Positions 23,314 to 44,067 of a DNA stretch of 64,000 nucleotides are shown here, one piece after another. The notes beneath the pieces are model-generated. The model was not told the DNA's origin, did no database searches, and was given only the letters and a program-made list of their open reading frames with translations. Both the position numbers and the translations under genes were made by a program. The DNA lies in contig NZ_LMGI01000003.1 in the NCBI RefSeq assembly GCF_001427105.1, positions 536,618-600,617 of the forward strand, written 5' to 3'. Numbering within the stretch: position 1 is the first letter of the stretch; each line of letters starts with the position of its first letter. Origin of the DNA: Sphingopyxis sp. Root154 (GTDB lineage: Bacteria; Pseudomonadota; Alphaproteobacteria; Sphingomonadales; Sphingomonadaceae).

Positions 23314-26300
23314 ATGAAGAAAACCAGCCTTTTGGTGCGGGGTTCCGCACTGACGCTTGCTTTGTTCAGCGCCATGCCGGCGTTTGCGCAGAGCGAAGTC
23401 GCTCCCGCCGACGATGCGGCAGAAACCGCCGAAGCAGGGACCATCGTCGTGACGGGATCGCGTATCCGTCGTCCGAACGTCGAGTCGAATCTGCCCGTCA
23501 CATCTCTGGGTGGAGAAGAGTTCTTCCAGCAGGGCCAGACGAACATCGGCGACACGCTGAACGAACTGCCCCAGCTGCGCAGCACCTTCGCGCAGCAGAA
23601 CCCGGGCGCCGGCGTCGGTATCGCCGGGCTTAACTTGCTCGACCTTCGCGGTCTGGGCACGGTTCGCACCCTCGTGTTGGTCAATGGCCGCCGTCACGTT
23701 CCGGCCGACATCCTGAACAATGCGGCGTCGCCTGACGTCAACACCATTCCGAACGACCTGATCGAGCGCGTGGAAATCGTGACCGGCGGCAATTCTGCCG
23801 TTTACGGTTCGGACGCTATCGCGGGCGTGGTCAACTTCATCCTTCGTCGCGATTTCGACGGTGTCCAGCTTCGCGGCAGCGCGGGGATTTCGGCCGCCGG
23901 TTACGGCGCGAACCAATATGCCTCGGCCATGGTCGGCAAGAATTTCGCCGATGACCGCGGTAACATTACGGCTCACGTCGAATACGCTCGCCAAGAGCGT
24001 ATTTATGCGTCGGACATTCCGTTCCTTCGTCAGAACAATGCCTTCGCAACGGTGGACGTTGATAGCGCGGGCACGCCGAACGCAAGTGATGGCTTTCCTG
24101 ACGCGGTATTCGTCCGCGATATTCGTAGCGCCTCGATCCACCGCTTCGGCATGGTGGCAATTCCGCAGTCGCAGACCGGATCGCGTCCTTGCGGGCAAGG
24201 CACGCTTTCCAACAACGGCCCGGCGAATACCAACGGTACTGCTTTCCACTGCAACTATATTTTCACCGAAGGTGGACGCCTCACTCCCCAGACAGGAACG
24301 CGTTTCGGTTCCGGTCCGGGCGGCACGTTCGTGGGAGGTAACGGCCAGACGTCGCGCGAAGGCACCCAGCTTGCCATCCTCCCCTATATGAAGCGCTACA
24401 ACGGCAACCTGCTTGCGCATTTCACGGTCAGCGACGCGCTCGAACTGTTCGGTGAAGCCAAGTTCACGCGCATCGACACGGTCGGCAACCAGCTTGGCCC
24501 GACGTTCCTGAACAACACGACGGCATCGCTGGGCAACGATTCCCGCATCGCCCCGCGGCTTGACAATCCGTTCCTGAATCCTGCGGATCGTTCGACGATT
24601 GCTAACGCCATTCTGGCATCTGGTTGTGGATACGCCTTGGGTACGTCGCTAGCGACCGTCACCTGCCGTCCGCTCACCGCGGCTGAAACCACCAATATCA
24701 GCAACGGCTCGTATCGCTTCCTTTTCTCGCGCAACCTGACCGACGCTGCGGATCGTGACGAATTCTTCCGTCGCGACACCTTCCGGGTCGTTGGTGGTGC
24801 CCGCGGCACCTTCAACGACGACTGGAATTACGAGCTTTCGGTCAATTACGGCAAAATGAAGGAACGGGCCGATATGGCCGGTTTCGTCAATCGTCAGCGC
24901 TTCCTGCTGTCGCTTGATGCCGCCATCGATCCGGCGAACCCGGGCGCCGGCATTCAGTGCCGGTCGAAATTTGACCCCGCAGCACGTGTCGGCGCGCCTG
25001 GCTACGCCAATTCGGCTGCCACGCTGGCGGGCGATGTCGCGGCCTGCGTTCCCTACAACCTGTTTGGTGCGGGCGATAATCGCGCGGCGGTCGATTATTT
25101 CAGCCTGGCGATCCGTAACCGGTCGTCGATCGAACAGCTGAATCTTCAGGGCTTCGTCTCGGGCGATCTCAGCCAGTTGTTCGAACTGCCCGGCGGTCCG
25201 GTCAGCTTTGTTCTCGGTGGTGAATATCGTCGCGAGAAGGCATTCAACGACAGCGATGACGCCGCTGACAACGGCATTTCCAATGCCGTGTTCCTTGGCG
25301 ATGTCGATGCGGATCCGGTGAAAGTGAAGGAAGCTTTCGGCGAAATCCGGATTCCCTTGCTCAAGGACATGCCCTTCGCTCACGAGTTGACCGTTAGCGG
25401 CGCAGGTCGGGTTTCGGACTACAACACCATCGGTACGGCCTGGGCCTATAATGCTGGTGTTGAATATGCTCCGATCCAGGATATCCGGTTCCGTGCCAAC
25501 TTCGGTCGCGCGGTGCGCGCGCCGAACGTTACGGAAACCAGCTTCCCGTCGGTTGAAAACTTCGCCAACAATTTCATCGATCCCTGTAACGTCAATGCAA
25601 TCGGCGCAAACGCGATTCGTACCGCAAACTGCACCGGACAGCTGACGCCTGCGCAGTTGGCGAACCTGGCTCCGGGTGGGTATTCGCTGGGCATCATTTC
25701 GGGAAGCAACCCGAACCTGAGCGCGGAAAAGGCCGACACCTACACGATCGGCGCGGTCATCCAGCCGCGCTGGGTTCCGGGCCTGTCGCTCACGATCGAT
25801 TACTTCAATATCAAAGTGAAGGACGTGATCGTTTCGCTGTCTGCACAGACCATTCTGAACTCGTGTTACGACTCGCCCGGTCTCAGCAGCCCGGTCTGCT
25901 CGCTGTTCCAGCGTAACCTCGGAAGCGGCAACGGATTGGGAGGCGAACTGCCGGGTCAAATCCTGAACTATTCGACGGTTTCGGGTCCGAACAACTTTGC
26001 AAAGCGTGTCCGCGAAGGCATCGATATCGAAGCTGCCTATCGCACCAACATCACGGACGACGTCAAGCTGAGCACCCGCTTCATCTACACCCACCAGCTG
26101 AAGAACAGCAATTTTGAGAACCCCACCTTCCCGAATCTCGAAAACCGCATCCTCAGCGAATTGGGCGATCCGCAGGATGAATTCCGCTGGAACATGGACC
26201 TGACCTTCGACCGGTTCACCTTCGGATATGAAATGCGTTACATCGGTCCGCAGCTGACCTCGACCTACGAAAATTTCTATCCGCTGGATTCGGCTTGCTC

Positions 26301-32224: not shown

Positions 32225-34231
32225 TCATTCCATCTCGAGGATCACCGCATCGACGGCAAGGCTGTCGCCTTGCGCGGCGTTGACGCTCTTCACCGTTCCC
32301 GATTTTTCGGCGCGAAGGATGTTCTCCATCTTCATCGCCTCGACCGTCGCGAGCGGCTGGCCCGCCTCGACCTTGTCACCCTCGCCAACGTGCAGCGTGA
32401 CGAGCAGGCCGGGCATCGGGCAGATGAGGAATTTCGACAGGTCGGGCGGGATCTTTTCGATCATGTGCGCGGTCAGTGGCGCGATGTGCCATGGCAGCAC
32501 TTGGACGTCATGGATATGCCCGCGCGTCGTCATCTTCCAGCCGGTGCGCGTCTTCGCGACCTTTACCGCGAGCTCGGTCTCGTCGATCTCGGCGATCACG
32601 AGACGGTCGCCCGGCGTATACTCGAGCGCGATGTCGATCCGGTCGCCCTCGACCTTGATATGCTTCTCTCCGATCTTGACCTTGTATGAGGTGCCGTCGA
32701 TCGAAACCTGCCATTTCGCGGGCGGTTCGAGCCGGTCGCCGAGCTGGCCGTCGGTGCGCCGCGCACGGTCGGCCTCGGCGCTCGCCATGAAGCCCGCGAT
32801 TGCCGCAAGCGCGCGCGTGACCGCCGCGTCGGTCGGTGCGCCGTGGAAGCCTTCGGGATATTCCTCGGCGATGAAACCCGTCGTCAGTTCGCCCGAGCGG
32901 AAGCGCGGGTGCTGCATGATCGCCGAGACGAAATCGATATTGTGGCCGAGTCCCTCGATCTCGAAACGGTCGAGCGCCGCGATTTGCAGATCAGCGGCCT
33001 CGTCGCGCGTTTCGCCCCACGTCACCAGCTTGGCGATCATCGGATCGTAGAAGATCGACACTTCGCCGCCCTCCTCGACGCCAGCATCGACGCGTACGCC
33101 GTCGACACCGCGCTCATCACCTTCCCATGCCGGAACGGGGGTGCGGTAGCGCACGAGGCGTCCGGTCGAAGGCAGGAATCCACGGTACGGGTCCTCGGCG
33201 TAGACACGGTTTTCGATCGCCCAGCCGTCGATCTTGATGTCGTCCTGCGTCATCTCGAGCTTTTCGCCCGCGGCGACGCGGATCATCTGTTCGACGAGGT
33301 CGATACCGGTGATCGCCTCGGTCACGGGATGCTCGACCTGAAGCCGCGTGTTCATTTCGAGGAAGTAGAAGCTCTCGCCCGTCGGGTCGGCGCCCGAGAC
33401 GATCAGTTCGACCGTACCCGCGCTATAATAGCCGACGGCCTTCGACAGCGCGACGCACTGTTCGCCCATCGCCTTGCGCATCTTTTCGGTGACGAAGGGC
33501 GACGGCGCCTCTTCGACGACCTTCTGATGGCGGCGCTGGATGCTGCATTCGCGCTCGTTGAGATAGAGGACGTTGCCGTGCTGGTCGCCAAGGATCTGGA
33601 TCTCGATGTGGCGCGGGTTGAGGATGAACTTCTCGATGAAGACGCGGTCGTCGCCGAAGCTGTTGAGCCCTTCGCGCTTGGTCGCCTCGAAGCCTTCGCG
33701 GACGTCCTTTTCGTCATAGGCGAGGCGCATGCCCTTGCCGCCGCCGCCGGCGGACGCCTTCATCATCACCGGATAGCCGATCTCGTTCGAAATCTCGACC
33801 GCATGCTCGGTATCGCGGATCTCGCCGACGAAGCCGGGGACGACGTTGACGCCCGCTTCCTTGGCGAGCTTCTTCGACTCGATCTTGTCGCCCATCGCGG
33901 CGATCGCGTTCACCGGCGGGCCGATGAAGGCGATATTTTCCTTCGCCAGTGCCTCGGCGAAGCTGGTGCGTTCGGAGAGGAAGCCATAGCCCGGATGCAC
34001 CGCCTCAGCGCCCGTCGACTTGCACGCGGCGATGATCTTGTCGGCGATCAGATAGGATTCGGATGCGGGCGAAGCGCCGATATGCACCGCCTCGTCAGCC
34101 ATCTGCACGAAGGGCGCGCGCGCGTCGGCGTCCGAATAGACGGCGACGGTCGCGATGCCCATGCGGCGGGCGGTCTTGATGACGCGGCAGGCGATTTCGC
34201 CGCGATTGGCGATCAGGATTTTCTTGAACAT
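32225..34231 (-). CDS. pccA: Propionyl-CoA carboxylase alpha subunit (biotin carboxylase + BCCP)
   Basis: The 668-residue protein carboxylates its own biotin with ATP and bicarbonate. MFKKILIANRGEIACRVI opens the biotin carboxylase domain, with an ATP-grasp loop ASAGGGGKGMR near 160 and MNTRLQVEHPVTE near 286. A BT linker region follows, and a C-terminal biotinyl domain has the biotinylated Lys634 in VEAMKMEN. This length fits PccA or a similar acyl-CoA carboxylase. Clustering with pccB, mce and scpA supports propionyl-CoA as substrate. ATG 34231 begins the conserved domain although the frame is open upstream. Confidence 0.93.
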   Translation of the reverse strand: MFKKILIANRGEIACRVIKTARRMGIATVAVYSDADARAPFVQMADEAVHIGASPASESYLIADKIIAACKSTGAEAVHPGYGFLSERTSFAEALAKENIAFIGPPVNAIAAMGDKIESKKLAKEAGVNVVPGFVGEIRDTEHAVEISNEIGYPVMMKASAGGGGKGMRLAYDEKDVREGFEATKREGLNSFGDDRVFIEKFILNPRHIEIQILGDQHGNVLYLNERECSIQRRHQKVVEEAPSPFVTEKMRKAMGEQCVALSKAVGYYSAGTVELIVSGADPTGESFYFLEMNTRLQVEHPVTEAITGIDLVEQMIRVAAGEKLEMTQDDIKIDGWAIENRVYAEDPYRGFLPSTGRLVRYRTPVPAWEGDERGVDGVRVDAGVEEGGEVSIFYDPMIAKLVTWGETRDEAADLQIAALDRFEIEGLGHNIDFVSAIMQHPRFRSGELTTGFIAEEYPEGFHGAPTDAAVTRALAAIAGFMASAEADRARRTDGQLGDRLEPPAKWQVSIDGTSYKVKIGEKHIKVEGDRIDIALEYTPGDRLVIAEIDETELAVKVAKTRTGWKMTTRGHIHDVQVLPWHIAPLTAHMIEKIPPDLSKFLICPMPGLLVTLHVGEGDKVEAGQPLATVEAMKMENILRAEKSGTVKSVNAAQGDSLAVDAVILEME

Positions 34232-34236
34232 GGCCC

Positions 34237-34629
34237 TCAATATTCCTCGATCAAATCTTTGAGTTGTTTGGTGCGTGCATCGGTGAGTTGCGTCTGGCAT
34301 CCGCTGATCACCATCGGTTCGGCTGAGCCGCCGCGCATCGTGTAGCCCTCGCTCGCGCATTGCTTGTCGCGATAGGTCAGCCATGCCCGCTGCGCGGCCA
34401 GCAGTGTGTCGAAATAGCCGGGGCGGTTGTCCTGGGTACGGTCGAAGTCGGCGTCGATGGCCTTCATACGCGCCGCCGTCACCTTCCACTGCGCGTTCAT
34501 CGCGGCGTCGGCGCGCTCAAATTCCTTGTAGGCGCAGGCGTTGAGCTCGAATTGCGCCATCGCGTTGTCGCAGTCGATCTCGGGATCCTGCGCGGCGGCG
34601 GCCAACGCCAGGAGGGCGGAAAGGATCAT
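34237..34629 (-). CDS. Exported LprI/DUF1311-family protein
   Basis: The 130-residue protein has a short signal peptide ([11 protein letters not shown]). The LprI-type domain follows: [22 protein letters not shown] near residue 19, then [19 protein letters not shown], and a late cysteine (SGCQTQ), giving four cysteines that could pair. Some relatives inhibit lysozyme. ATG 34629 overlaps the bioB stop (ATGA) and its stop lies five bases before pccA, so it is firmly inside the operon, for no obvious metabolic reason. Confidence 0.8.
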
Positions 34630-35657
34630 TCCGCGGCTTCCATCTGCGCGCGCATCGGCTCTTCGCTCACCATCGGGACGATACCCAGCTTCGCGAACAG
34701 CGCCGCGTCGGCATTGTCGCCGCGGTTGCCGGTGGTGAGCAGCTTGTCGCCTGTGAAGATGCTGTTCGCACCCGCGATGAAGCAGAGCGCCTGCGTTGCC
34801 TCGGACATGCTTTCGCGGCCAGCCGACAGGCGAACCATCGATTTCGGCATGGTGATACGCGCGACCGCGATCGTGCGGACAAATTCGATATCGTCGATCT
34901 TCGCGAGCGGGGTGTCCGCGAGCATGTCGCCGAGCACGGTGCCCTTCACCGGGACGAGTGCGTTGACCGGAACGCTTTCGGGGTGACGTTCGAGCGTCGC
35001 GAGCGCGTGGATGAAGCCGACGCGATCCTGCCGGTTCTCGCCCAGCCCGACGATGCCGCCCGAGCAGACGTTGATCCCGGCGTTGCGTACCTCTTCCAGC
35101 GTGTCGAGCCGGTCCTGGAAGGTACGGGTCGAGATGATATTCTCGTAATTCTCGGGGCTCGTGTCGATATTATGGTTGTAATAATCGAGCCCCGCGACCG
35201 CGAGCGTCTGCGCCTGTTCCCTGGTCAGCATGCCGAGCGTCATGCAGGTTTCCATGCCCATCTGGCGCACCCCCTCGATCATCTCGACGATCGCGGGCAT
35301 GTCGCGATCCTTGGGGTTGCGCCAGGCGGCGCCCATGCAGAAACGCTTCGAGCCCGAATCCTTCGCCTGTGCCGCGGATTGCAGCACAGCGCGCACATCC
35401 ATCAGCTTGGTCGCCTTCAATCCGCTGTCGGCGCTCTTCGACTGCGAGCAATAGCCGCAATCCTCGACGCAGCCGCCGGTCTTGATGCTGAGCAGGGTGC
35501 AAAGCTGGACTTCACCGCGCGCATGATGGCGACGGTGGACGCCCTGCGCCTCCCACATCAGTTCGTCGAACGGCAGGTCGAACAGCTCGGCGATCTCTTC
35601 GCGCGTCCAGTCGGTGCGCGGCAGATCTTCTTGCGGGGCAGTTTGGGAGAGGTTCAT
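34626..35657 (-). CDS. bioB: Biotin synthase
   Basis: The 343-residue radical-SAM enzyme inserts sulphur into dethiobiotin. The [4Fe-4S] motif CVEDCGYC gives Cys63, Cys67 and Cys70. [13 protein letters not shown] (near 155) and the conserved [17 protein letters not shown] segment (Arg ligand for the [2Fe-2S] cluster) are present. [17 protein letters not shown] at 35657 follows AAGAAGG. It sits between two enzymes of the propionyl-CoA pathway and directly upstream of biotin-requiring pccA. The other bio genes are not here. Confidence 0.95.
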
Positions 35658-35679
35658 GGATTGTCGACCTTCTTTGATG

Positions 35680-36117
35680 TTATTTGCAAAAGCGCTCGAG
35701 CGCGGCGCCGTAAAATTTGATTGTCGGCGTTTCGCCGAACATTTGCTGATAATTGCCGTCGGCCCATGGTCTGCGGTCGCCATAGCTGATCGTTATCTGC
35801 CGCGCGGTTTCGGCATCACCATATTCGCCGACGCCGTAGAGCGTGAAGTCGATATCGGCTTCGGGATCGTCGCAGTTGAGACGGACCAGCCCCTTGTTCA
35901 CATATTTGTCGCTCGTCTCGAAATAGATGTCGCGCCAAGGGCCGTCGCTCTTTTCGACACGGCCGTACCAGTCGGTGAAATAGACGTCGTCGATCTGTTG
36001 CCGGTAGATCCACTCGACCGCGACATTTTTGCGGAACTCGCTCGGACGGCTCGCGGGTTCGGCACGCGCCGAAGCGACCGAAAAGGCAGCGAGCATCAGA
36101 CCGAGCGAACCGATCAC
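35680..36117 (-). CDS. Small exported protein of unknown function
   Basis: The 145-residue product starts at GTG 36117, overlapping the scpA stop (GTGA). It has a signal peptide ([15 protein letters not shown]) and a single mature domain with two cysteines ([13 protein letters not shown] at the C terminus). I do not recognise the family. Its stop is only 22 bases from the bioB start, so it belongs to the operon. Confidence 0.65.
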
Positions 36118-38261
36118 GCGGCGTCCTCCAGCGGCGGCATATTATGGCCGAGCAGGCGCAGCACGTCTGCGGCGCATTCGACCACATTGCTGCCGGGCCC
36201 ATAGATGCCCTGCACCCCCGCGTCGCGGAGATATTGATAGTCCTGCGGCGGGATGACGCCGCCCGCAATGACCTTGATGTCGCCGCGCCCCGCCTCTTTC
36301 AGCCTGTGGATAAGTTCGGGGATAAGTGTCTTGTGCCCCGCCGCGAGACTCGACGCGCCGACGACATCGACGCCGCTGTCGAGCGCGAGCACGACCGTCT
36401 CGTCAGGGGTCTGGAACAGCGGCCCCGAAACCACGTCGAAGCCCATGTCGCCGAACGCCGATGCGATGACGTTGGCGCCGCGGTCGTGGCCGTCCTGCCC
36501 CATCTTGGCGACGAGCAATTTGGGTTTGCGCCCCATGCGGCGTTCGACCGCCTTCACCCCGTCGAGCACCTGCTGCCAGCGGTTGTCGCCTTCGTACGGC
36601 GCGGCATAGACGCCCTTCACCGGGGTCGGCTGGGTGCCGTAACGATCGAAGCTTTCCTCCATCGCCGAAGAGATTTCGCCGAGCGTCGCGCGCGCACGCG
36701 CGGCCTCGACGGCGAGCGCGAGCAGGTTGTTCTCGATGCTCGAAGGCTGCGCCGCGCCGTCGCGGAGCGCCTTGAGCGCGGCGGCACACGCCGCTTCGTC
36801 GCGGCTCGCCTTGATCCTGTTGATCCGCGCGATCTGCCCTTCGCGCACCTTGGCGTTATCGACCTCGAGCGTTTCGAGCAGATCCTCGTCCTTGAGGCGA
36901 TATTTGTTCACCCCGACGATGACATCGTCGCCGCGGTCGACGCGCGCCTGCCGCGCCGCAGCGGCGGTCTCGATCATCGCCTTCGGCCAGCCCGCGGCGA
37001 CGGCTTTCGCCATCCCGCCTTCCTTCTCGACGCGCTCGATGATCGCCCACGCCTTGTCGACCAGCTCCTGCGTCAGCGCCTCGACATAGTAAGAGCCGCC
37101 GAGCGGATCGACGACCTTGGTCATCCCGGTCTCTTCCTGGATGACGATCTGTGTGTTGCGCGCGATGCGCGCGGAGAAATCGGTCGGCAGCGCGATCGCC
37201 TCGTCGAGCGCGTTGGTGTGCAGGCTCTGCGTCCCGCCGAGCATCGCTGCCATCGCTTCGATCGTCGTGCGCATGACGTTGTTGTAGGGGTCCTGCTCGG
37301 TGAGCGAGACGCCCGACGTCTGACAGTGGGTTCGGAGCATCTTCGAGCGCTCGTCCTTGGCGCCAAGGTTAGTCATTACGCGGTGCCACAGCACGCGCGC
37401 GGCGCGCAGTTTCGCGATTTCCATGAAGAAGTTCATGCCGATCGCGAAGAAGAAGGACAGGCGCCCGGCGAACTTGTCAATGTCGAGGCCGCTCGCGACG
37501 CCGTAGCGTACATATTCGGCGCCGTCGGCGATGGTGAAGGCCAGCTCCTGCACCTGCGTCGCGCCGGCTTCCTGCATATGATAGCCGGAGATCGAGATGC
37601 TGTTGAACTTCGGCATCTCGCGGCTGGTATAGCCGAAGATGTCCGAGATGATCCGCATCGAGGGTTCGGGCGGGTAGATATAGGTGTTGCGGACCATGAA
37701 CTCCTTCAGGATGTCGTTCTGGATCGTGCCGTCGAGCAATTTGCGATCGACCCCCTGCTCTTCGCCCGCAACGATGAAGAAGGCGAGGATCGGGATTACC
37801 GCGCCGTTCATCGTCATCGAAACCGACATCTGGTCTAGCGGGATGCCGTCGAAGAGGATCTTCATATCCTCGACGCTGTCGATCGCGACCCCCGCCTTGC
37901 CGACGTCGCCGACGACGCGCGGATGGTCGCTGTCATAGCCGCGGTGCGTCGCGAGATCGAAGGCGACGCTCAGCCCCTTTTGTCCCGCGGCAAGGTTGCG
38001 GCGATAGAAAGCGTTAGATTCCTCGGCGGTCGAGAAGCCCGCGTACTGCCGGATCGTCCACGGCCGCCCCGCATACATCGATGCGCGCACGCCGCGCGTG
38101 AAAGGGGCGAAGCCGGGCAGGCCGGGGTCGGTCTGGACGTCTTCGGCGGTATAGAGCGGCTTGACGTCGATTCCCTCGGGCGTTGCCCAGGTCAGGTCCT
38201 TGCCCTTCACTTCCTTGTCGGCGGCGGCCGCCCATTGGTCCAGCGTTGGCTTGTCGGTCAT
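36114..38261 (-). CDS. scpA: Methylmalonyl-CoA mutase
   Basis: The 715-residue adenosylcobalamin enzyme rearranges (R)-methylmalonyl-CoA to succinyl-CoA. The substrate-binding TIM barrel carries [20 protein letters not shown] near residue 75 and [13 protein letters not shown]. The cobalamin-binding domain has DGHDRG near 590-595, with the axial His, and [11 protein letters not shown] near the end. It is a single-chain homodimeric type, not split. An in-frame TTG lies at 38276, but ATG 38261 is preferred. It is transcribed after mce, separated by a palindromic spacer of 187 bases. Confidence 0.95.
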
Positions 38262-38280
38262 AGTCTCAATTCCCAATCTC

Positions 38281-38448: not shown

Positions 38449-38886
38449 TCAATGCGCCGCTTTCGGCGTCTCCATAATCTCGGTCAGCACCCCGCCCATA
38501 TCCTTGGGATGGAGGAAGAAGATCAACGTCCCATGCGCCCCGATCCGCGGTTCGCCGAGCACGCGCTTCCCCTTCGCCTCGAACTCGGCCTTGGCGGCGT
38601 GGATGTCGGGCACTTCGTAGCACAGATGATGCTGCCCCCCTGCGGGGTTCTTTTGCAGGAAAGTCGCGATCGATGCATTGCCCGGCAATGGTTCGATCAG
38701 CTCGATTTGTGTGCCGTTGAGGCCGCTTTGGGTCGGCGTATCCACAAAGCACACCTTGACCCCCTGTTCGGGCAGGTCGAACGGCTCATGGATCTGTGTC
38801 GCCCCCATCACATCGCGATAAAAGACGATGCTGTCGGCGATCGATGGCGTCGCGACGCCGATATGATTGAGGCGACCCAGTTTCAT
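38449..38886 (-). CDS. mce: Methylmalonyl-CoA epimerase
   Basis: The 145-residue VOC-fold enzyme converts (S)- to (R)-methylmalonyl-CoA, the step between the carboxylase and the mutase. Metal ligands are visible in the two repeats: His in LNHIGVA (near residue 8), Glu in IELIEPL, His in GQHHLCYEV, and Glu in LTEIMETP. Length matches the family. It begins ten bases after the upstream exported-protein gene's stop. Confidence 0.93.
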   Translation of the reverse strand: MKLGRLNHIGVATPSIADSIVFYRDVMGATQIHEPFDLPEQGVKVCFVDTPTQSGLNGTQIELIEPLPGNASIATFLQKNPAGGQHHLCYEVPDIHAAKAEFEAKGKRVLGEPRIGAHGTLIFFLHPKDMGGVLTEIMETPKAAH

Positions 38887-38896
38887 GACATTCTCC

Positions 38897-39646
38897 TCAG
38901 CAGCCCGGAATCTGGTCCTTGCCGACTAGCTCATACTTGCCGTTCTTCAATAGGTATTGCTGCTTGATCGCGCGCGTGCCGGTGTAGGTCACGGTAAAGC
39001 TTTTGTCGGGAACGGCCGCGGTGATCTGGCCGTCGAAGCCCTGCTCCTTCTGGTTCAGACCGGCACCCGAGCTCATGCTATCGGTGAAGCTCGCGCGATC
39101 GACCGGTCCATTGGGCGCCAGCTCGGTCAGCGTCGCGCTGCTGATCGCGCAGCCCTGCCATACCCCGCCGCCCGACGTGACGAGATAGGCGTTCTTGCCC
39201 AGCGCGTTGCTGAACCCCCACGCGGTCGCCGCATTGCCGACCGAGCCGACCGAACCGAGGTTCAGCCACTCCCCCTTGCGCTGCCAGCCCGACGGACCGC
39301 CCTGTAGATAATGGATCGCGTTGATCCCGCCTTCGCTGTGCCCCGCTTCTTCGAGGCTGCCGAGGCTCAGCAGTACGCCGACGTTGTTCGACAGCAGGTG
39401 GATCGTGGCGGGACGGAATGTGTAGGTGCGTCCGTCGATCTCACGAGTTGCCGTTGCTTCGGCGCCCTTCGGAAGCCCGAAAGCCGTCCGGAATGCAAGG
39501 CCGATCGTGGTGTTCTCTTCGCTGTCCAGCGTCACTGGAAAAGCGGGTTTCGGCTCGGCGACAGGGGTATCGGGGTCGAACGCGAACGCCGCCGGCGACG
39601 CCAGCAGGGCGGGAACAATCAGAGCACCAAGAAGGAATTTACGCAT
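38897..39646 (-). CDS. Exported protein of unknown function in the pcc operon
   Basis: The 249-residue protein has a signal peptide (LLGALIVPALLASPAAFAF) and a mature domain with two cysteines (WQGCAIS, PGC at the C terminus). A Gly-rich core follows (LNLGSVGSVGNAATAWGFSNALG). The C-terminal part (FTVTYTGTRAIKQQYLLKNGKYELV) looks like a beta-hairpin unit. I recognise no family. ATG 39646 follows AAAGAGG by seven bases and is chosen over a TTG at 39652. It lies between pccB and mce. Confidence 0.65.
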   Translation of the reverse strand: MRKFLLGALIVPALLASPAAFAFDPDTPVAEPKPAFPVTLDSEENTTIGLAFRTAFGLPKGAEATATREIDGRTYTFRPATIHLLSNNVGVLLSLGSLEEAGHSEGGINAIHYLQGGPSGWQRKGEWLNLGSVGSVGNAATAWGFSNALGKNAYLVTSGGGVWQGCAISSATLTELAPNGPVDRASFTDSMSSGAGLNQKEQGFDGQITAAVPDKSFTVTYTGTRAIKQQYLLKNGKYELVGKDQIPGC

Positions 39647-39770
39647 CTTCAAACCTCTTTCGGAATCAAGGACATGGCGGCCATGTTCTAACCGCCTCCC
39701 GTCCTTGCCTCCAGTCCGGTGTTTCTTATGTGCCGGGCATCACACACACGAATAATATCCGTGCTCGCAA

Positions 39771-41306
39771 TCAGAGCGGAATATTATCGTGCTTCTTCCA
39801 CGGATTTTCGAGTTGCTTATTCCTGAGCTTGCGCAGCCCCAGTGCGATCCGCTTGCGCGTGTTGTGCGGGTGGATGACCTCGTCGATATAGCCGCGCGAC
39901 GCCGCGACGAACGGGTTCGCGAAGCGGTCCTCATATTCCTTCGTGCGCTGTGCAATCTTTTCGGGATCGCCGATGTCGCTGCGGAAGATGATTTCGACCG
40001 CGCCCTTCGCGCCCATCACCGCGATCTCGGCGGTCGGCCAGGCATAGTTGAGGTCGCCGCGCAGATGCTTCGACGCCATCACGTCATAGGCGCCGCCATA
40101 GGCTTTTTTGCGCGTGATCACCGTGATCTTGGGCACCGTGGCCTCGGCATAAGCAAAGAGCAGCTTCGCGCCATGCTTGATGATGCCGTTATATTCCTGC
40201 GCGGTGCCGGGCAGGAAGCCTGGGACGTCGACGAAGGTGATGATTGGGATTTCGAAGGCGTCGCAGAAGCGCACGAAGCGCGCGGCTTTCTTGGACGAGT
40301 TGATGTCGAGCACGCCCGCGAGCACCAGCGGCTGATTCGCGACGATGCCGATCGTGCGCCCTTCGATACGCCCGAAGCCGCAGATGATGTTCGCCGCGTG
40401 CGTGGTCTGCACCTCGAAGAAATCGCCCTCGTCGACGGTCTTCCGGATCAGCTCGTGCATGTCATACGGTTGGTTCGCATTGGGCGGGATCAGCGTATCG
40501 AGGCTCGGCTCGGCGCGGTCGAAGGGGTCACTCGTCGGGCGCACCGGAACGCCGCTGCGGTTGTTTTCGGGCAGGTAATCGAAGAAATCGCGCGCCGCGA
40601 GCAGCGCCTCGATGTCATTTTCAAATGCCAGATCGGCGACCGAGCTTTTCGTCGTGTGCGTGATCGCGCCGCCGAGTTCTTCCTGCGTCACGACCTCGTT
40701 GGTCACGGTCTTCACGACATCGGGGCCGGTGACGAACATGTAGCTGCTGTCCTTCACCATGAAGATGAAGTCGGTCATCGCGGGCGAATAGACCGCACCG
40801 CCCGCGCACGGGCCCATGATGAGGCTGATCTGCGGCACGACACCCGATGCGAGCACGTTGCGCTGGAACACCTCGGCATAACCGCCGAGCGATGCCACGC
40901 CCTCCTGGATCCGCGCGCCGCCGCTGTCGTTGAGGCCGATGACCGGCGCGCCGACCTTCATCGCATTGTCCATCACCTTCATGATCTTTTCGGCATGGCG
41001 CTCCGACAGCGAGCCGCCGAAGACAGTGAAGTCCTGGCTGAAGACATAGACGAGGCGGCCGTTGATCGTGCCCGAACCGGTAACGACGCCGTCACCCGGG
41101 ACGATCTGGTCCTGCATGCCAAAATCGGTGCAATTATGCTCCACATAAGTGTCGAGCTCCTCGAACGAACCTTCGTCGAGCAGCACGTCGAGTCGCTCGC
41201 GCGCGGTCAGCTTGCCCTTGCTGTGCTGTGCATCGATGCGCTTTTGCCCGCCACCCAGAGCGGCGGCGGCGCGACGGCGTTCCATTTCGGCGATATTGGC
41301 GGACAA
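39771..41306 (-). CDS. pccB: Propionyl-CoA carboxylase beta subunit (carboxyltransferase)
   Basis: The 511-residue carboxyltransferase moves the carboxyl group from biotin to propionyl-CoA. Markers are [21 protein letters not shown] near residue 30, the acyl-CoA oxyanion [17 protein letters not shown] near 145, and the second [15 protein letters not shown] near 420. The start is taken as TTG 41306 because GGAGAG lies seven bases upstream; an internal ATG at 41285 would remove seven residues. It is the first gene of the leftward operon and diverges from the regulator at 41510. Confidence 0.93.
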
Positions 41307-41372
41307 AGCGACTCTCCACTGGATTTGGAAGAGCGTCGTCTGCGCTGATTGCGTCCCCCACGCAAATGTGAA

Positions 41373-41403
41373 TTTGCAAAGTTGTAAATTGATACTTTGC
41401 AAA
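41373..41403. promoter_or_regulatory. Inverted repeat TTTGCAAAGT-N11-ACTTTGCAAA, putative operator
   Basis: Two perfect 10-bp arms have centres 21 bases apart, two helical turns, between pccB and the divergent PrpR/RamB-type regulator. The half-site contains ACTTTGCAAA, which matches the RamB motif known from Corynebacterium as I recall it. The neighbouring regulator belongs to that family, so autoregulation and control of pccB are likely. Confidence 0.75.
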
Positions 41404-41509
41404 CAGCCGTATATTGTCGGCTCATTCGTTTTAAGGTTGTCGAGGCGTCGCAATACCCCTCCCTAAACCCCCGCGACGGCTCGACACCATCGCAATGGAG
41501 CCCATTTGG

Positions 41510-42919
41510 ATGGCACGGCAGCGCATTTTTGCTGGAGCAAAGCTCCGGGAACTCCGAATTGCTCGAGGAGCCAAGCAGGCCGATTTCGCGGGCGGGCTTG
41601 GCATTTCCATTTCCTACCTTAGCCAGATCGAGCATGATGACCGCCCACTCACGCCCGCTCTGCTCGACAGGTTGCAAAAGCTGTTTCCGCTGGAATGGGA
41701 AGAAGTCGCGGCGGATGCCGGCGACCGTCGCGCGGGAGCGCTTCGCGAAGCGGCGGCAGACCCGCTTTTCGCTGCCTTGCCCCTCACCCCCGAACAGCTC
41801 GAACGTGCCGCGCTGCAGCAGCCGCAGCTCGCCGACCAGTTCGTCGCGCTCCACGCCGCCTATCGCCGCGCGGGGCAGCGGCTCCAGATCATCGACGAAG
41901 CGCTGACGGGCGGCACCGCCGAGGGCAGCCGCCTGCCGTGGGAAGAGGTGCGTGACTGGTTCCACGACGCGGGCAATTATGTCGACAGCATCGACCGCGC
42001 GGCAGAGGCGCTGGCGGGACAGCTGCGCGGGCGAGACCCCTCCCCCGCTATCGAGGCGATCGAGCGACGGCTGCGCGATGCGCTCGGCATTTCGATCGTC
42101 TACAGCAAGACGCAAGCGCTGCGAGATTTCGATGCGACGATGCGACATCTGGTGATCGATCCGTCGCTGCCTGCCGAAAGCAGGCGCTTCCAGCTCGCGC
42201 ACCAGCTCGCCGCGCTCGCGCTCGCGGACGAGATTGCAGCGGTCGTCGAGGCGTCGCCGCTGCGTACGGCGGCGGCGCGACAGTTGCTCCATGTCGGCCT
42301 TGCCAATTATGCCGCCGGCGCGGTGCTGATGCCCTATGCGCCCTTCCGCGCCAGCGCGCGCGCAGTGCGGCACGATATCGACCGGCTGCGGATGCAATAT
42401 GGGGTGAGCTTCGAACAGGCGTGCCACCGTCTTTCAACGCTCCAGCGCCCCGGCGCACGCGGCATCCCGATGTTCTTCTGCCGCGTCGACATGGCGGGCA
42501 ATATCACCAAGCGGCATTCGGCGACACGGCTGCAGTTCGCGCGCTTCGGGGGCGCGTGTCCGCTGTGGATCGTCCACGAAGCCGCCGCGATCCCCGACCG
42601 CATCCTGTTCCAACTCGCCGAGACGCCTGACGGGCTGCGCTATGTGTCGATGGCGAAGGGTCTGGTGAAGCCGTCGGGCAGCTATGCGCGCTCGCCCCGC
42701 CGCTACGCCGTCGCGCTGGGGTGCGAGGCGCAATATGCGGGCGATTTCGTCTATGCCGACGGGGTCGATGTCGCCGCGCCGCAGGCGGCGACGCGCATCG
42801 GCTTGTCGTGCCGTATCTGCCCGCGCGACGATTGCGACCAGCGTGCCTTCCCGCCGAGCGACCGTCCGATTTTGGTCGATCCGGATCGGCGCGACGTGGT
42901 GCCGTACCGGATTGGGTGA
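41510..42919 (+). CDS. Short-chain fatty acyl-CoA regulator (PrpR/RamB family)
   Basis: The 469-residue regulator has an N-terminal XRE helix-turn-helix (about 6-65, LRELRIARGAKQADFAGG, YLSQIEHDDRPL) and a middle ImmA/IrrE-like region (about 150-300). The C-terminal domain contains the cysteine cluster Cys434-X2-Cys437-X4-Cys442 (SCRICPRDDC). In mycobacterial PrpR this domain binds acyl-CoA and a 4Fe-4S cluster, so metabolite and redox sensing is likely here. GGAG at 41497-41500 favours ATG 41510 over ATG 41495. It diverges from pccB across the TTTGCAAA repeats. Confidence 0.88.
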   Translation: MARQRIFAGAKLRELRIARGAKQADFAGGLGISISYLSQIEHDDRPLTPALLDRLQKLFPLEWEEVAADAGDRRAGALREAAADPLFAALPLTPEQLERAALQQPQLADQFVALHAAYRRAGQRLQIIDEALTGGTAEGSRLPWEEVRDWFHDAGNYVDSIDRAAEALAGQLRGRDPSPAIEAIERRLRDALGISIVYSKTQALRDFDATMRHLVIDPSLPAESRRFQLAHQLAALALADEIAAVVEASPLRTAAARQLLHVGLANYAAGAVLMPYAPFRASARAVRHDIDRLRMQYGVSFEQACHRLSTLQRPGARGIPMFFCRVDMAGNITKRHSATRLQFARFGGACPLWIVHEAAAIPDRILFQLAETPDGLRYVSMAKGLVKPSGSYARSPRRYAVALGCEAQYAGDFVYADGVDVAAPQAATRIGLSCRICPRDDCDQRAFPPSDRPILVDPDRRDVVPYRIG

Positions 42920-43050: not shown

Positions 43051-44067
43051 TCAGACTTTCACGATCCCGCGCTCGATCAGACTATGCGCCGTCGCCAATA
43101 TCGCCTCCTCAGGCGTGCGCATCGTCCAGCCCAATGACTGCATCGCATGGCTGCTATCGCCGCCGCGGACATTGCCGAGTTCGGCGACGAGCTGCTTGAG
43201 CTCGGGACGCACCAGCGCGAGCAGCTTGAGCAGCCAGTCGGGCATCTTCCGCTTCGGCACTTTCCGCGCTTGCTCGCCAAGGTTCGCGCGCAGCAGGTTC
43301 GCGACATCGATCATCTTCAGGAACGGCCCGGAGCAGACATAGCGTTCATCGTGAACGCCGGGCGTCGTCAGTGCGCGATAGTGAAGGTCGGCGACGTCGC
43401 GGACGTCGATGATCCCGAAACCGATATCGGGGCACATCGGCACCTTGCCCTCGAGCAACTGTTTCACCAGCTCGATCGAGGTCGAGAGGTCGTCCGACAG
43501 CAACGGCCCGAACACCGCGGCGGGATTGACCGAGGCGAACTCCATGCCGCCGCCCTCGGCTCGCACCCAGTCGCGCGCCGCACGCTCGGCGACGGTCTTC
43601 GAGCGCGGATAGGGCATGACCTCGGGGTTATCGAGATTGGTCCAGTCGGCTTCGTTATAGATGTCGCGGCCCTTGCCATGCCCATAAGCGATCGCCGCCA
43701 TCGACGAGGTCAGGACGAACCGCTTGACCCCTGCCGCTTTGGCGAAACGTAAGGCACGCAATGCGCCTTCGCGCGCCGGGACGACCAGTTCGTCGGCATG
43801 CTTCGGCACGTCGAGCGGAAAGGGCGACGCGACATGCGCAACATGGCTGCATCCCGCCATCGCCTCGGCCCAGCCGGCGTCATTTTCGAGATCGGCGGCG
43901 AAGAAGCCGAGCCTGTCGTTGTCGACGTTCAGCCAGCCGCGGACCTCTGCCTCGCGTTTCAGGCTGCGGACGGTCGTGTGGATGGTCCAGCCATTGTCGA
44001 TCAGCTGCCGGATCAGGAAGCCCGCGATATAGCCGCTGCCCCCGGTGATCAATGCCGTGCCCGTCAT
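43051..44067 (-). CDS. Extended SDR, dihydroflavonol-4-reductase-like
   Basis: The 338-residue protein has the extended SDR nucleotide motif TGGSGYIAGFLIRQL near residue 8, a catalytic YPRSK (Tyr and Lys) near 160, and NPAAVFGPLLSDDLSTS. The pattern suits NADP-dependent ketone/aldehyde reductases of the cinnamyl/dihydroflavonol group. The substrate in bacteria is unknown. It stands alone, converging with the PrpR-type regulator. Confidence 0.83.
   Translation of the reverse strand: MTGTALITGGSGYIAGFLIRQLIDNGWTIHTTVRSLKREAEVRGWLNVDNDRLGFFAADLENDAGWAEAMAGCSHVAHVASPFPLDVPKHADELVVPAREGALRALRFAKAAGVKRFVLTSSMAAIAYGHGKGRDIYNEADWTNLDNPEVMPYPRSKTVAERAARDWVRAEGGGMEFASVNPAAVFGPLLSDDLSTSIELVKQLLEGKVPMCPDIGFGIIDVRDVADLHYRALTTPGVHDERYVCSGPFLKMIDVANLLRANLGEQARKVPKRKMPDWLLKLLALVRPELKQLVAELGNVRGGDSSHAMQSLGWTMRTPEEAILATAHSLIERGIVKV

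Follow-up and report, generated by a model that had tools for sequence, protein, structure and literature searches.

A repeat between pccB and a divergent regulator gene in Sphingopyxis is almost certainly the docking site of a PccR-type propionyl-CoA switch

What is the purpose of the repeat TTTGCAAAGTTGTAAATTGATACTTTGCAAA that lies at 41373-41403, between a pccB gene and a divergent gene for an ScfR-family regulator, in a 64,000-nt stretch of the Sphingopyxis sp. Root154 genome (the window, meaning the whole stretch of DNA analysed here)? It can be written as TTTGCAAA-N15-TTTGCAAA, and the initial annotation had taken it for an operator of the neighbouring regulator at the pccB promoter, built from two perfect 10-bp arms whose centres stand two helical turns apart. 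Comparison of sequences across relatives indicates that a known type of propionyl-CoA-sensing switch (PccR) almost certainly docks on the DNA at this repeat in a sphingomonad. The role of operator for the adjacent regulator is supported by conservation, synteny, polarity and co-occurrence with the regulator; the geometry requires a different description.

The repeat is present exactly as first described, and chance is excluded as its origin (0 of 100 shuffles, a single pair in the genome). With up to three mismatches to TTTGCAAAGTTGTAAATTGATACTTTGCAAA allowed, the window holds this one match, and none of the 100 shuffled versions holds any. Two copies of TTTGCAAA with 4 to 30 bp between them occur at one place in the 4,726,935-bp genome, again 41373-41403, against none for the reversed-pattern control. 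The box 1-2-3 pattern described below, at up to three mismatches, likewise has its single genome match here, leaving this genome without a second site. The 10-bp half-site TTTGCAAAGT has three copies genome-wide, two of them in the repeat; the third, at 25994-26003, was ruled out as a site because it lies inside a TonB-receptor-like coding sequence.

The neighbours are those first named: a PF01039 carboxyltransferase on the minus strand, and on the plus strand a regulator with PF09856, PF06114 and HTH domains. The carboxyltransferase gene is pccB, for the propionyl-CoA carboxylase beta subunit (39771-41306; PF01039, 2.5e-200), with a TTG start inferred from the sequence and GGAGAG before it. 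On the same strand lie an ORF of 251 aa (38897-39652; 249 aa searched) within the putative operon, which has a signal-peptide-like start by eye and matched no Pfam or NCBIfam family; mce, for methylmalonyl-CoA epimerase (38449-38886; TIGR03081, 4e-38); a methylmalonyl-CoA mutase gene (36114-38276; NF006944, score 1219.5); a bioB-like biotin synthase gene (34626-35783; PF06968 and PF04055), placed between mutase and pccA and apparently in the same operon; and pccA, for the alpha subunit (32225-34489; PF18140 PCC_BT plus biotin carboxylase domains). A biotin synthase is also described among the pcc genes of a Novosphingobium cluster, and Novosphingobium tardaugens is reported to induce the same gene set on testosterone, a propionyl-CoA source (PMC6895838). 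More generally, propionyl-CoA is said to arise in sphingomonad steroid and ibuprofen breakdown (PMC6895838, PMC9195938), and PMC9195938 names a hypothetical pccR next to the pcc genes of Rhizorhabdus wittichii, a sphingomonad.

The regulator gene, pccR, runs from 41510 to 42919 on the plus strand; its ATG at 41510 is preferred over 41495, as the alignments of 53 of 80 relatives (our own count) begin at residue 6, corresponding to 41510. Its protein carries HTH_3 (33.5 bits), PF06114 (70.5 bits) and PF09856 (215.3 bits, 5e-64), all above cut-off, which is the HTH, IrrE/M78-like and ScfR C-terminal arrangement of the short-chain fatty acyl-CoA regulators (ScfR, also IsaR). The nearest relatives among the best 80 are Sphingopyxis proteins, 97-98% identical, and the nearest solved relative is M. 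tuberculosis PrpR (PDB 6CZ6, 6CYY; residues 98-471 of the 474-aa reading, E 1.5e-79). Four PDB relatives are aligned no earlier than residue 98, beyond the HTH, and therefore show nothing of how the boxes are read. In the alignment with PrpR, C355, C439, C442 and C447 match the [4Fe4S] cysteines C363, C447, C450 and C455 of PrpR (C-x2-C-x4-C plus a distal Cys), and F232 and H311 with F240 and H319, which stack on the CoA adenine. At the position of PrpR Phe155 stands W149 (474-aa numbering). Phe155 is argued to select the ligand in PrpR, a Trp there is reported to keep the propionate response, and R. sphaeroides PccR is given a Trp at this position (PMC6765138).

Location points the same way, pccR adjoining pccB in divergent orientation, with a pccB start found upstream in 89 of 96 loci. 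Judged by its pccB neighbour and its ligand-position Trp, the regulator is a PccR-like member of ScfR. The initial annotation had thus guessed the family correctly, but the protein is neither RamB nor, by its neighbours, a methylcitrate PrpR: methylcitrate-cycle genes are absent from either side, with pccB on one and an epimerase/dehydratase-like ORF (43051-44067) on the other. Corynebacterium RamB, which has a ACTTTGCAAA-like half-site, differs in serving acetate metabolism, and on the RamB equivalog model NF038139 our regulator reaches 402.7 bits, below the curated cut-off of 700. A second ScfR paralogue is present in the genome (L002, G000:C3:292768-293238), 35% identical and with a gap at the Trp position; it adjoins a gene that by eye resembles an HD-GYP protein, and its upstream region has no box pair (best, 7 mismatches).

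Both the class of regulator and the kind of site (PccR/ScfR) are already known, so that a site common to Actinobacteria and Alphaproteobacteria, as the initial annotation had proposed, offers no new hint. The half-site of R. sphaeroides PccR is TTTGCAAA, and its motif is reportedly TTTGCAAA-X4-TTTGCAAA; in contrast to that X4 motif, centres here are 8, 15 and 23 bp apart and a conserved AATGYGAA block is added. The PccR of Rhodobacter (Cereibacter) sphaeroides is likewise an ScfR regulator, described as controlling pccB (PMC12632250), and shares the Trp at the Phe155 position. M. tuberculosis PrpR is reported to protect 25 bp with TTTGCAAA-N-TTTGCgAA and to activate prpDC (PMC3420887); it is like our regulator in its half-site TTTGCAAA and in F240, H319, C363 and C447-x2-C-x4-C455, all kept here, and unlike it in serving the methylcitrate cycle, in boxes 1 bp apart (centres 9 bp) and in having Phe rather than Trp. 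Class 2 RamB of Paracoccus denitrificans is described as an ScfR activator with a two-box operator upstream of the operon beside its own gene, both boxes being needed for activation; it differs in its 18-bp spacer, its glyoxylate-cycle target and its other CoA ligands (PMC10370305).

What evolution has kept of the repeat is seen best in its relatives. A protein search over genome contigs found 317 relatives of the regulator among the candidate stretches, of which the best 80 were used. Boxes 1 and 3, the outer pair with its 23-bp spacing, are present in all 80 of these protein-fetched loci (80 of the best 80 of 317), with no more than one mismatch across the two, and are perfect in 55; the repeat is thus kept at the pccR/pccB locus in relatives. 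Adding our own locus and 15 fetched by pattern gives a set of 96, in which the pair with at most one mismatch occurs 96 times, although 16 of these (our own and the pattern-fetched) were selected for the pair, and the set includes identical sites (L085/L098, L069/L096 and L034/L114). Over the 96 loci a spacing of 23 bp between boxes occurs in 96, 15 bp in 55 and 8 bp in 43, any other in five or fewer; the 15- and 8-bp spacings are frequent because of a third box, box 2. With 41373 as position 0, the conserved columns are -11 to +17, +21, +23 to +30 and +32 to +33, and the flanks drift, with little conserved except some pccB-side columns in Sphingopyxis loci.

The conserved element reads AATGYGAA / TTTGCRAA / RTTGCRAA / N7 / TTTGCAAA, with centre spacings of 8, 8 and 15 bp, and it is polar, with its AATGYGAA end (box 0) toward pccB. 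Box 0 (AATGTGAA, 41365-41372, plus strand) is a degenerate copy of the box that abuts box 1 on the pccB side; AATGYGAA is matched without mismatch in 85 of the 96 loci, with one in nine and with two in two. Box 1 (TTTGCAAA, 41373-41380) is the left arm of the initial annotation minus its GT, and box 3 (TTTGCAAA, 41396-41403; centre 23 bp from that of box 1) is the right arm minus its AC. Between them lies box 2 (GTTGTAAA, 41381-41388), at centre-to-centre distances of 8 bp to box 1 and 15 bp to box 3. The window's own copy of box 2 is degenerate, one mismatch from RTTGCRAA; across the 96 loci this consensus is matched perfectly in 81, with one mismatch in nine and with three or more in six, these last all in one genus and among the loci selected for the box pair.

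The two perfect 10-bp arms are therefore present in the window, but their ends are not conserved. The arms add G8 and T9 on the left and A21 and C22 on the right; the left-arm GT belongs to the abutting box 2, position 22 is free in relatives, and the pair 8-22 is complementary in just 32% of distinct sites. Column comparison over the relatives thus rules out the 'GT...AC' arm ends as conserved bases, and the perfect 10-bp inverted repeat is a local accident laid over two palindromic boxes. The spacing changes with it: the centres of the 10-bp arms are indeed 21 bp apart, whereas those of the conserved 8-bp palindromes are 23 bp apart, about 2.2 turns. Moreover TTTGCAAA is its own reverse complement, so direct and inverted arrangements are not separable from two boxes alone. 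As the alignment has it, the conserved unit is a polar array of 8-bp boxes and not a 10-bp inverted repeat two turns apart.

Scans of 298 genomes of the family tie this array to the regulator. The box pair alone, with a spacer of 4-30 bp, occurs 38 times across 34 genomes, 20 times with the 15-bp spacer (own count), and its reversed control in 11 of the 298 (own count); 17 of the 20 spacer-15 places are upstream of pccR. L099 (a TonB receptor/MFS gene pair) and L108 (a hairpin-like palindrome) were rejected as PccR sites, by eye having neither block nor box 2. The full composite, at up to three mismatches, was found at 64 places in 56 of the 298 genomes, with the reversed control in 0 of 298. 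PccR (E at most 1e-100) was detected in 102 of the 298, four of which (G017, G056, G201 and G212) have 41-44% matches only and may hold another ScfR. All 56 composite-bearing genomes are among the 102, an association that is weaker than it looks given shared ancestry; the chance figure of 1e-32 ignores kinship and is not taken as a probability here. By place, 55 of the 64 lie upstream of pccR in the same orientation, and a 56th, in G254, is flanked by pccB on one side and on the other by a pccR whose start is truncated at the end of the contig.

The composite at up to three mismatches is absent from 46 of the 102 PccR genomes. In the 39 of these that we examined (six further genomes being seen as L090-L095, and G166 standing outside the count), 17 keep two boxes 23 bp apart, neither with more than one mismatch, and 11 have a pair at 15 bp whose mismatches total one at most. 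Since genomes without the composite keep such degenerate pairs, array geometry drifts within the family. Across the class, TTTGCAAA pairs with spacers of 0 to 30 bp were found in 78 of 387 genomes (reversed control, 18; own count), with no dominant spacing among the matches listed and many in small genomes, for which reasons we take the 23-bp geometry as a family-level trait. A class-wide ScfR search gave matches in 60 of 241 genomes; of the 29 loci taken (L147-L175), eight lack any box at one mismatch or fewer over the stretch searched, and the remainder are arranged in other ways. L147, from the same family as the window's genome, can be read by eye as a degenerate version of the array. At G395:C14:18490-18521, in another alphaproteobacterial family, three TTTGCAAA boxes follow one another with 4 bp between neighbours.

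Eight of the 64 composite places are away from pccR, and seven of these eight precede an ETF-domain gene, read as etfB, in the same polarity (genomes G114, G174, G220, G257, G289, G156 and G028, of three genera; loci L200-L203, L209, L211 and L212). In each of the seven, box 0 is the end turned toward etfB, and the distance to the ATG of its 249-aa reading is 71-124 bp. The block at these sites is AATG(C/T)GAA in six and ACTGCGAA in one; at six of the seven it is partly selected, because AATGYGAA is within the search pattern. The G289 site (L107) was found by the box pair alone and still carries the box-0 block, which makes it probable, in our reading, that AATGYGAA belongs to the operator and not to the pccB promoter alone. 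On these sites etfB is a candidate second target of PccR; literature joining ETF with PccR or ScfR was not found among the matches listed. The eighth place (L210:1579-1617 in G028) is a one-mismatch composite facing a TonB-receptor-like gene.

How would PccR act from this array? A consensus scan predicts a pccR promoter, TTGATA-17-TATTGT, at 41389-41417 on the plus strand (one found, 0.1 expected in shuffles), with box 3 in its spacer and a leader of roughly 85-90 bp after it. Because the array overlaps this predicted promoter, auto-regulation of pccR is likely. A terminator-like hairpin, AGCCGTATATTGTCGGCT (41405-41422, plus strand; one found, 0.3 expected), followed by T-rich sequence, also overlaps the promoter. 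In many relatives TAnnnT stands at +32 to +37, after box 3. The aligned pccR start comes 12-15 bp after box 3 in 25 of the 96 loci, and in these T+32 and A+33 are invariant and T+37 is present in 16, the corresponding counts in the other 71 loci being 53, 46 and 22. The pattern of the 25 loci, whose sequences are related and not independent, fits a -10 element with the transcript starting at the ATG, that is, a leaderless pccR mRNA. On the pccB strand the sigma-70 consensus scan gave no match; a weak pccB promoter may be placed at 41337-41366 (minus strand), with a -35-like TTTGCG (41366-41361) beside box 0 and a -10 region at about 41337-41343, and Sphingopyxis loci have conserved columns at about the distance expected of a -10.

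From this geometry and from what is known of relatives, the most likely signs of regulation are activation of pccB and autorepression of pccR. A PccR oligomer loaded with propionyl-CoA would bind the array and contact RNA polymerase at the weak pccB promoter just past the box-0 end, a contact that would turn on the methylmalonyl-CoA operon (pccB, mce, mutase, bioB, pccA). The same bound PccR would cover the pccR promoter, with box 3 in its spacer and, in most relatives, box 2 on its -35, and so lower the production of PccR; an additional copy of the array would probably bring etfB under the same control in some sphingomonads. We consider it highly probable that 41365-41403 serves the adjacent PccR-type regulator as its operator, for activation of the pccB operon and damping of pccR, with a second copy at etfB in some sphingomonads.

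The opposite sign, in which PccR represses pccB and propionyl-CoA relieves the repression, we consider unlikely. It has a precedent in M. tuberculosis RamB, a family member reported to repress icl1 (PMC3420887, PMC6765138), and occlusion of a promoter would select a fixed spacing just as activation would. Against it, the boxes stand upstream of what is predicted to be the pccB -35; PrpR (PMC3420887) and class 2 RamB (PMC10370305) are described as activators of their targets; and deletion of pccR in R. capsulatus is reported to have impaired growth on propionate (PMC10370305). One report counts against a general role of PccR: in Paracoccus denitrificans, deletion of Pden_4472, which clusters with PccR and is not beside pcc genes, is reported to have had no effect in the strains tested (PMC10370305).

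A little less probable again is that the array serves pccR alone, as an autoregulatory repressor operator, while pccB has an independent promoter and is affected only passively. The overlap of box 3 with the predicted pccR promoter would suit this, as would the invariant TA at +32/+33 in all 25 loci with a start codon 12-15 bp past box 3. Spacing speaks against it: the array keeps a tight distance to pccB (54-77 bp in 82 of 89 loci), whereas pccR lies anywhere from 2 to 177 bp away across the 96. The seven etfB copies, with their target on the box-0 side, speak against it too; moreover the gene beyond the etfB site in the three copies tested (L107, L209 and L212) resembles sucC and shares the orientation of etfB, so it is not a divergent regulator. 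That the repeat has no regulatory role, being a chance pair of palindromes or a terminator-like structure, is hardly credible, for although palindromic pairs exist within hairpin-like sequence elsewhere (L108), this pair is kept in 80 of 80 protein-fetched relatives and the reversed control of the composite matches in 0 of 298 genomes.

Returning to activation of pccB with autorepression of pccR, we put forward a more specific model tentatively, rating it a little below even: in the polar four-box array (8, 8, 15) direction would set the sign, genes beyond box 0 (pccB, joined by etfB in several genera) being activated and the promoter at box 3 (pccR, often leaderless) shut, so that one propionyl-CoA sensor would couple carboxylation capacity to the electron-transfer flavoprotein. 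In the open-licence literature, judged by title and the start of the abstract, we found no description of the array among the matches listed for the motif or for PccR in Sphingopyxis; the polar multi-box geometry, the overlap with the promoter of a pccR that in many species is probably leaderless, and the copies at etfB were not found in print.

The operator is now defined precisely enough for prediction of targets across the family, and it points to etfB as a second target in three genera. The several natural spacings within one family would make these sites a tractable case for learning how a tetrameric Fe-S regulator of the ScfR family reads repeated 8-bp boxes.
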